Shown: positions 35,181 to 61,902 of the stretch, one piece after another | How positions within the stretch are numbered: the first letter of the stretch is position 1 | Layout: each line of letters opens with the position of its first letter | Source of the DNA: Ianthella basta | Taxonomy: Eukaryota; Porifera; Demospongiae; Verongiida; Ianthellidae | Direction of reading: 5' to 3' | Assembly (NCBI GenBank): GCA_964019415.1 | Contig: OZ025884.1 | Span: 4,533,193 to 4,597,192 of the forward strand | Length of the DNA: 64,000 nt | Program-made: the position numbers and the translations under genes | The notes under the pieces: model-generated | Seen by the model: the letters and a program-made list of their open reading frames with translations, nothing else | Databases searched by the model: none | What the model was told of the DNA's origin: nothing

Positions 35181-38100
35181 TCAAATGACAAAGCCTTGTC
35201 CCTCGACTCGTGATTTGATCACGTTTTCTGCAATGTCCCGCCGCTGAATGAGCTCTAGTGCACTGATGAGGCATGTCAGTGTGGCCTCGTCGCCCTGGTC
35301 GCTCTGCCACTGTAGCAGTAGCCGCTCGCCAGGAGGCAGGGTGGAAGGAATGCTGAGTGCTGGGGTGAGAAAGGGGTCCTGACGCATCTTGCGGATCAGT
35401 CGTGATGTGGACACTGAAGAGCGGCTAGTTGAGGACATGGAACTAGCAATGGATGAAATCGACAAAGACTTGGGGATGGGACCTAAGTCCTCCTTCGAGG
35501 AGCTCCTTCTTCTACCCTCATCCCTGGATGACAGGTCAGGAGAGGTGTCGTGAGCATCGGGGATGGTGGAGAGGGCGGATGTGGCAAAAATCCCGTGGAG
35601 CTCAGAGGAGCTGAAACCAAGGATCTCCCCTAGATCCCACCATGACTTGCCAAGGAGGCTACTGATGACTTGGATGTCACCTTCATTGGCAAGCTCTGTG
35701 TACAGGAGAGAGGAAGAAGACACAGTCCATTAACACTGTAACTTAACACTCCCCCTTTATACGCAGCTGCTTGCTACTCTCATATTGGAATAAAGTGTCT
35801 GATATATGGTATGAAAGGAAACAAGCATTTTCAGAATGAGCTTAAAGTGAAAAAGTTCTCTATAAGGGAAGGAAAAAGTGAAAACTGTAGCTCAGCTAGG
35901 AGTTTTACACCCCAAGATGTTTCTCAATGTTTCCCAAACTGCTCTCTATCATTTCATGTCATTGTACACACACAGGCCGCGCTAACTCACCTAATTTGTC
36001 ATTGGCAACAGCCATATCCACCATGTCTTCTTCGGTGGACCCGAACCACCTGGTCACTCCAACCAAAGGTGTAATCTCACTCCCCTCCTCACACACAAGC
36101 CCCTGGGGCCCCATCCAATCCTCTGTATCATTCAGTATAGCATAGTGCTGACCAAGATCTCTCTCTCCTTTGCAAGAACACTCCACGCAGAGATCAAAGT
36201 CCAACTGCGGGATCCACTGCTGGATGATGTCAGAAATTGCTGCCTTGATGAACATCAGCACAGTCATGCAGACATCAGAGCTGGGCTGGCCAACGGCAGC
36301 TGACATTGCTGACGGTGTTGGGCCTGCGGGTGAAGAAGGGCGACTTGTGGATTCCTCCACTTGGACCCAGATGCGGATTGATTCTTCCACCTCCTGCACA
36401 AAGACGGTGGTTGCGTCGTCCACAGCAAATGTTGCAAGACCGCTGTACAAGCAGTAGCACCGTGGGTAGTTACAGATGCAACGAGCGATTAGCCGCAAAT
36501 AAAGACCAGAAGGTAGGAAGCCGCCCTTTACTCGGAAGTACAAGGGCTCAATGTTGCAATCTGGCTCTGCAAACAGCTGGTCAGGAGGGTGCTGGCTGAC
36601 CAACGCTGGGATGACTGTAGCGGACACAACCGGGCAATCAAGTAGCAGTGCGCTCTGCTGTTGTGTGTGCAAGGCCATCACCTCGTCTTGATCACCAAGG
36701 CAGACCAAAAGGTCCATCTTGTGTAGCAGGGTAAGCAAGTGTGAACGCTCGGTTGGAGAAATCTCCCACCACACGTGACTGATCACGTTTCCTGACAGCT
36801 TGCCTGTAGACTTCAAGAGGGCAATCTCCTGTCGGAAAGGCTTGATGACTTCTGAATTAGTGGGAAGAGCTACAGACAGGATCAAACTGGCATGATGGGC
36901 AAACCAGGATGGAGAAATCACCACTACATCCTTCATCATGTGGATGTGTGGCAAGTGGAAGATGATGAGATTATCGTGAAGGAACTCCAAAAGTTGCTCA
37001 ATCTCTTCTGAGGAAATGCAGAATCGTGCCAGAACATCCTCCATCTTTGCTTTGGGCTGGATGTGATCTGCAGATTCCGCAAGTGCTTTCACCTCTGCTG
37101 TTGCTTCAAGCCATCGAATTGGGACCTGTTGGCGGCCATGTGTCTTCACCAGGTTGGTAATGCACTGCTTTAGGTCTTCCATTTTCGCTTGCTCCAGAAT
37201 GGATGAAGAACTGACGGCAAACTGGCTCGGGGTAAAGAAAGGTCGACAAGGAAGATGGTCAACCGCCTCCTTGACGGCCGTTAGTTGCTCTCTGCTGCAA
37301 CTGAAGCTGCTCATCTTGTCTGAGTGAGTGCCAACCAGGAGCATTCTACAGTTAGCCGTGTGCTCCTCCAGACTTTGCCTAGGGATATGGTGAAACAGGC
37401 CCATCATGTCACCTGCAATGTGATCCAAATAGGTACGTGGAACATACCCTATTTCAAACAGCCGGGAACCATTGTTCTGTGAAGACACTACCGACAATGA
37501 GCTACCATAGCGCGTGAGACTCTGGGTGGAATCAAGCCTGCGTGAGAGATCAAAGGTTACCACAGCAACAGACCTCTTTGTGAAGAATAAGGGTCGAAGC
37601 AGGCTATGCACTGAAGCCCCTGGAAGGTCTATCAACCGCCCAAACAGTGCAGGAGGCAGTGACTTCTGCTGCTGACATTGCTCCAGGCCATAAATAAGGC
37701 CCCGAACCACACTATCTTCCAAAGAATTTCTAGCCAGTGAGTTCCGAGACCCATTCTCATCCACATTAGGAATGGAAGTAGAGGAGGAGTGTGTGCTGTC
37801 ATCACTCGGAATGTATGGTTCAGGAGACGCGGTGAGGTGAGATCCATTCTGTGGCGTTCGAGTATTTGTGCCACTATCTTCTGCATGTCGCCTTACAGAA
37901 CCATACCTCCGAAAGGAGCCTATGATCTTCCGTAGCTTCGAAGGGCTGTTAGAGGCATTGGCAGCATTCAAACTAACATTCAGTTCAGCTTTATGCACTC
38001 CATTGGTCACAGGTAGTTCACGATTCACTGCCCTGCCATTCTGTTGCCGCACACGGTTTCTTGAGCTACCTGTGTTGAAGGAATGGCTCCGCAAAAGGGG

Positions 38101-61902: not shown

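Follow-up and report, generated by a model that had tools for sequence, protein, structure and literature searches.

In the available part of PMC6337361, three groups of Roco proteins are described, of which only the group of DAPK1 has a kinase before RocCOR and, in addition, a death domain. In that part of the paper none of the three groups has a tyrosine kinase as a partner, and the terms 'tyrosine kinase' and 'SH2' do not occur. Similarly, the accessible text of a study of holozoan tyrosine kinases (PMC8662651) uses 'Csk' 10 times and 'Roc' and 'Death' zero times. Trichoplax has at least 17 ROCO genes, with LRR, TPR, CARD and death domains, and ROC-COR was reported there beside CARD or death domains (accessible sections of PMC11378527), while many tyrosine kinases of choanoflagellates have unique domain combinations (accessible sections of PMC3082566). 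Therefore, unusual partners of either module are already known. Our literature search, which lay largely outside subscription journals, found no title or abstract opening that describes ROC-COR linked to a tyrosine kinase, whether or not Death is also present.

Here, we analysed a locus of the sponge Ianthella basta in which such a junction is predicted. The window, that is, the whole stretch of 64,000 nucleotides analysed, covers positions 4,533,193-4,597,192 of OZ025884.1 (C17 of the 209 Mb genome), and the predicted fusion gene is on its minus strand. The genome gave 34 matches to Wnt (best E = 1.8e-66) and 14 control genomes gave none, which marks it as that of an animal. All exon coordinates below refer to the window.

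Gene model and domains of the predicted protein

A preliminary description of the window had proposed 17 agreeing exons that encode at least 1505 aa. We obtained 1505 aa by an in-frame join of 17 exons from 61902 to 35181 on the minus strand; the exons were chosen by eye and joined by a script. A candidate start exon (62583..62591), consisting of an ATG and the donor CAG/gttagt in phase 0, adds three residues (MSQ) and gives an 18-exon model of 1508 aa. All 17 introns of this model are GT-AG, and all their phases agree. The first SH3 exon (61828..61902, residues 4-28) aligns to the SH3 of CSK. The placement of this exon and of the start exon, at the extreme 5′ end, is uncertain because the acceptor at 61902 is weak: 39% of the AG sites in the window score equally well, and a CA repeat precedes it. 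On the same strand, a Peptidase_M28-like gene comes to its stop some 280 bases upstream of this candidate exon; its 3′ part was observed at 62869-63800 on the minus strand (26.2 bits, cut-off 21.3).

According to the gene model and the Pfam matches, the SH3 continues in the exons 54584..54631 (residues 29-44) and 54277..54377 (residues 45-78), where it ends. The SH2 occupies 53629..53748 (residues 78-118, with FLVR), 53285..53390 (residues 118-153) and the first part of 51549..51651 (residues 154-188), which also includes the SH2-kinase linker. The kinase begins in 51114..51176 with the glycine loop GTGEFGDV, continuing into the next exon, 50196..50307, which contains VAVK. It then extends over 49742..49832, 48356..48429, 47962..48061 (with HRDLAARN), 47525..47626 (with DLG for DFG, and APE), 39742..39828 on the 3′ side of a 7.7-kb intron, and 39023..39185. 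The kinase domain is dispersed over several exons and interrupted by this large intron, yet the Pfam match is nearly end to end (PK_Tyr_Ser-Thr, 270.5 bits, positions 2-256 of 258 in the whole protein). One intron in the kinase region contains a minisatellite-like tandem repeat at 50330-50960, with units of ~42 bases as judged by eye. Inside the 7.7-kb intron, we observed a 299-aa open reading frame on the plus strand (44261-45160), which matches the DDE_3 endonuclease at 16.5 bits (cut-off 28.6) and is probably a transposon remnant.

The three exons that follow also agree with the preliminary description. An open linker exon of 75 nt, or 25 codons (38747..38821), and a ROC-COR exon of 2583 nt (35991..38573), previously given as 2.6 kb in matching phase, both run from phase 1 to phase 1. 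The death-domain exon (35181..35695) follows in phase and carries an 80-aa insert and the stop codon. The linker was placed by the gene model and splice scores, the ROC-COR exon by its COR-A match, motifs and phase-1 start, and the last exon by its Pfam Death match.

The first 451 residues were compared with PDB sequences. Full-length CSK (1k9a) matched residues 10-449 with 368.5 bits. Comparatively, the best SH3-SH2-kinase chain of another family, ABL1 (8ssn), matched residues 25-448 with 270.4 bits, and SRC-type chains scored lower. When the kinase domain is taken by itself, CSK leads only narrowly, with 272.3 bits (1byg) against 271.3 bits for an EGFR chain aligned in two pieces. Kinase motifs comprising 12 residues are present together with APE, and the DLG that replaces DFG keeps the Asp. 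An alignment to CSK revealed that the activation segment has no Tyr, and the missing Tyr is a trait of CSK. By its SH3-SH2-kinase match, the predicted kinase is of the CSK type, as had been suggested. In the model, its chain does not end after the kinase domain as that of CSK does, and a splice donor replaces the stop.

A Pfam search of the conceptual protein recovered SH3, SH2, the tyrosine kinase, COR-A, Death and a divergent ROC. SH2 was found with 58.3 bits in the whole protein and retains FLVR. The SH3_2 match was at its cut-off (21.9 bits, cut-off 21.8), and SH3_1 and SH3_9 were below theirs. When aligned to CSK, the SH3 no longer shows the Trp or the residues around it that form the pocket in CSK. 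Thus, this SH3 may be structural only. The order SH3-SH2-tyrosine kinase-ROC-COR-Death given in the preliminary description is borne out by the Pfam matches and motifs, with Roc under the cut-off, but an ordinary SH3 function is not. We do not claim that the SH3, having lost these pocket residues, binds the protein's own PPPLPTR sequence (residue 598, in the ROC insert).

COR-A spans residues 961-1106 and scored 35.2 bits in the whole protein (cut-off 35.3) and 40.7 bits in the genome search. The Roc matches of 19.5 and 21.2 bits were under the cut-off of 27, and in the whole-protein search only the P-loop part was matched. COR-B reached only 12 bits. It is therefore uncertain whether the ROC-COR binds GTP. 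The ROC motifs occur in order: G1 GPEGSGKT at residue 513, G3 DLPG at 792 and G4 THSD at 892. A long, Ser-rich insert lies in this ROC, and the distance from G1 to G3 is 279 residues. A ROC followed by a COR, as in ROCO proteins, is thus recognized from the COR-A match and, for ROC, from the order of G1, G3 and G4 and from family similarity. Judged from these comparisons, both the ROC and the SH3 are divergent. The Death match covered the C half with 26.5 bits in the whole protein (cut-off 22.6); without the 80-aa insert it rose to 39 bits over positions 5-83 of 86, which places it in the Death superfamily. Among the Pfam matches of the whole protein there was neither an ankyrin nor an LRR match.

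The junction between the kinase and ROC-COR exons

The kinase, the ROC-COR and the death domain very probably belong to one predicted gene. The last kinase exon had been reported to end in AAAG/GTGAGC without a stop codon, and its coordinates (39185-39023) and donor (TCAAAG/gtgagc) were verified in the gene model. This exon and the ROC exon are 449 bases apart, with no N between them. Splice sites were scored with matrices trained on 13 other introns of the gene and ranked among the GT or AG sites of the window. Among GT sites, the donor after 39023 ranked within the top 0.15%, that after 38747 within the top 3.7% and that after 35991 within the top 0.19%; the acceptors ranked within the top 0.57% (38821), 0.97% (38573) and 3.6% (35695) of AG sites. 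Such strong sites at the junctions favour one gene. On the minus strand, the 64 kb hold only five open exons in phase 1-1 with sites as strong as those of the linker; three of the five, including the linker, have the coordinates of exons of the fusion gene (54631-54584 is used there in another phase). Therefore, the linker exon seems to be more than a chance occurrence.

When the window was searched in translation with the fusion protein, two more CSK-like kinases emerged, SH2 included; they lie downstream in tandem on the same strand (minus, about 15075-19400 and about 24941-29450). Both have an ordinary stop. Their kinase N-lobe exons were closest to CSK (99.8 and 99.2 bits, vs 85.5 and 83.4 bits for the next kind). 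In both paralogues the last kinase exon starts at a position corresponding to 39185 and ends with a stretch of 23 residues and a stop codon. At the same stretch, the fusion gene has 16 residues and then AAAG/GTGAGC, three codons before the stop of the paralogues. This contrast between a stop and a splice donor favours one gene over two neighbours. Several exons of the two paralogues are near-identical to each other.

The start of the ROC exon was also informative. Its first in-frame ATG is at 38502, in the context AAGATGG, and a pre-ROC motif starts 5′ of this ATG. When the local 24 residues were shuffled, the nine residues before the Met outscored 99.8% of the shuffles (P = 0.002), and of 1062 other ATGs preceded by an open stretch of 24 codons, none reached the score; the test is a modest one, as nine residues were scored against three hand-picked sequences. 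Among seven other loci, six have a phase-1 acceptor before the ROC exon (L048, L011, L076, L079, L080 and L081); these acceptors were assigned by eye, L048 and L011 are in one array, and L074 was given no acceptor. At the six loci, a conserved Tyr, from which the sequence runs on into the P-loop, follows the AG after about ten codons. In the exon at 38573, which also starts in phase 1, the Tyr comes after fifteen codons, and it is as far from the P-loop glycine as in L074. The shared phase-1 boundary and the pre-ROC motif again favour one gene.

We also considered poly-A signals, which proved uninformative. None was present between the kinase and ROC exons, yet AATAAA and ATTAAA were also absent within 700 bases at the ends of both CSK-like paralogues and of the peptidase-like gene. 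As three nearby gene ends have no signal either, this argument was dropped.

The preliminary single-gene reading thus gains support from the stop of the paralogues opposite the donor, the boundary and motif of the ROC exon, and the splice strengths. The opposite reading, in which a third CSK copy ends just past 39023 and a separate ROC-COR-Death gene begins at about 38502, is quite improbable. Read-through of the donor at 39022 would indeed meet a stop after about 29 more codons, the ATG at 38502 would serve as a start by itself, and ROC-COR-Death may exist without a kinase in this genome, as Death lies downstream of at least five of 71 other non-LRRK ROC loci. However, two genes would leave the pre-ROC motif on the 5′ side of the start codon and the acceptor at 38573 in agreement with other ROC exons in phase and approximate place; chance would have to account for the linker exon with its four splice sites, and only 449 bases would separate the two exons. 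It is less improbable, although still unlikely, that one locus has alternative ends, with a CSK-like protein made by read-through at 39022 and the fusion made by splicing. The read-through product would be a CSK-like protein of ordinary size, and the linker could be skipped because both flanking junctions are in phase 1, but the donor at 39022 is among the very best GT sites of the window. That the assembly joined two loci by error is hardly credible, considering the matched splice sites, a junction of 449 bases free of N and a contig of 7.1 Mb.

In a fused gene, the ROC-COR might still act as a dead scaffold, which dimerises or spaces the other domains and does not switch with GTP. Because the ROC is divergent, this remains a rival. 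The sub-threshold Roc score, the 279 residues between G1 and G3 and the weak COR-B all fit it, whereas the presence of G1, G3 and G4 in order does not, and we regard it as rather doubtful. Returning to the locus as a whole, its best explanation is probably one gene for a soluble protein of ~1.5 thousand residues, with SH3-like, SH2, CSK kinase, ROC-COR and Death domains, which most likely arose by exon capture and may work in the manner proposed below.

ROC-COR relatives in the genome

When 87 ROC/COR loci (including that of the fusion gene) were compared with the 136 kinase matches listed, only the fusion gene had a kinase directly upstream. Among the matches listed, a kinase on the same strand within 30 kb upstream was found for two of the 87 loci, the fusion gene (441 bases) and C20:4279736 (17 kb). 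The kinase upstream of C20:4279736 was assigned to another LRRK-type locus, because it lies 2.2 kb downstream of that locus. At least five of the 15 LRRK-type loci had a kinase match within 30 kb downstream among those listed. The kinase list came from a tyrosine kinase query and held 135 of 1577 candidates, and the ROC/COR loci were likewise the scored part of a larger candidate set; the counts are lower bounds, and upstream Ser/Thr kinases may be missed. Similarly, the figure of at least five of 71 other non-LRRK ROC loci refers to Death matches within 15 kb downstream on the same strand, and it is a lower bound drawn from 150 of 437 candidates, the death domain of the window not being among the 150.

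In the genome search, the ROC-COR exon of the fusion gene matched, besides itself, seven loci on C2 (E = 0.005 to 0.15), and no close copy was found. A BLAST search of the tail against the fetched ROC-COR loci gave E values of 1e-6 to 0.002 for the C2 group. A profile of the C2 group matched the exon with 13.1 bits over G3 to COR, and a profile of the L072/L074/L076 group with 12.5 bits over COR. There was no match to the exon from the L075/L077/L078 profile, from L069 as a single sequence, or from an LRRK-group profile into which four pieces of L063 and L064 were entered. Among PDB sequences, nothing matched the tail significantly (best E = 0.037, over a stretch with the P-loop). On present comparisons, the fusion ROC-COR therefore stands alone as a divergent member, and no parent gene for it emerged among the ROC-COR exons of the genome that were compared.

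The genome has a divergent ROC-COR family (including L074, L076 and the C2 array), which shares with the fusion exon the pre-ROC motif, the phase-1 start and the long insert after the P-loop. The identity to the fusion exon is about 20-24%, and the other members compared differ from it in having no kinase directly upstream among the matches listed. The L074 exon belongs to a large family, with at least 103 matching pieces (58 of 345 candidates scored). Divergent ROC-COR exons with the conserved pre-ROC motif, for which at least 58 candidates were scored besides an array of seven on C2, were observed for example at C22:0.65-0.79 Mb, on C34, C5, C12 and C16, and at C2:5.69-5.89 Mb. Genes in the LRRK order (LRR-ROC-COR-kinase) are also present, forming a cluster with long open frames at C20:3.93-4.36 Mb, and death-domain matches are densely clustered on one strand at C6:9.05-9.39 Mb.

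A possible second kinase-to-ROC gene at C3:4550350 was rejected. Both Roc and kinase matches fell on C3:4550350-4551534 (L047, 1288-2709) in the genome searches. By eye, a single open frame of 473 aa there encodes a TKL-like kinase and, after it, a Rab-like GTPase, and a similar frame pair begins at 4105 of L047. No COR was seen there, and the locus is therefore no precedent.

Proposed origin and working, and comparison with known proteins

The most likely origin is that, in a tandem CSK copy, a splice donor took the place of the stop codon, and that a phase-1 ROC-COR exon and a death-domain exon were captured. The genome is rich in ROC-COR exons of this general type. The two adjoining CSK-like copies could have kept the original job.

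The SH2 domain brings CSK to phosphotyrosine sites, and the SH2 of the fusion protein would recruit it in the same way. The kinase would phosphorylate tyrosines, probably those in the tails of Src-family kinases. By analogy with DAPK1, the nucleotide state and pairing of the ROC-COR would set the kinase output through the chain, and the death domain would link the protein to death-fold partners. We propose that GTP and death-domain assembly would tune this CSK because comparable behaviour is reported for DAPK1 in the accessible part of PMC4917528, and because that of PMC8662651 mentions that Csk acts on Src tails. In DAPK1, the ROC-COR binds and hydrolyses GTP, the nucleotide state acts through the chain on kinase autoinhibition, homodimers are mediated by the kinase and ROC, and kinase activity is affected by the death domain, which also binds partners (PMC4917528, accessible part). 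Resting on analogy, this outline of SH2 targeting, kinase action, ROC-COR control and Death partners is a tentative one. The signalling hub suggested in the preliminary description is likewise an inference. It is possible, although we hold it with some reserve, that the gene adds another kind to the Roco proteins: a CSK-type kinase targeted to phosphotyrosine, its output set by a GTPase in its own chain and by death-domain assembly. Exon capture in a tandem CSK copy would then have directly coupled the braking of Src-family kinases to a death-fold platform.

If expressed, the gene would be a natural experiment on whether a kinase of an unrelated class can come under ROC-COR control of the sort reported for DAPK1. 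It would provide, too, a clear example of how splicing into a captured exon can replace a stop codon, and the unfused sister genes adjoining it would serve as controls. The domain order is unusual, and phosphotyrosine, GTP and death-domain signalling would share a single protein.

Compared with CSK, the predicted protein has the same SH3-SH2-kinase order, its best match over the N-terminal 450 residues and the same lack of an activation-loop Tyr. It differs in having DLG instead of DFG, in the loss of the SH3 pocket and in ~1,050 extra residues (ROC-COR and Death) where CSK stops. LRRK1 and LRRK2 (Roco group 2) likewise join ROC-COR and a kinase in one chain, but their LRRs precede ROC and their kinase follows COR, which is not the order found here. 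The comparison with DAPK1 (Roco group 3) made in the preliminary description was apt: judged by domain order, both have a kinase before ROC-COR, a C-terminal Death and no LRR match (PMC6337361, accessible part). However, DAPK1 has a calmodulin-dependent Ser/Thr kinase and ankyrin repeats, whereas the fusion protein has a CSK-type tyrosine kinase, no ankyrin match, and SH3 and SH2 in addition. As predicted from the sequence, it is a ROCO protein in a DAPK1-like order that carries the kinase of CSK.
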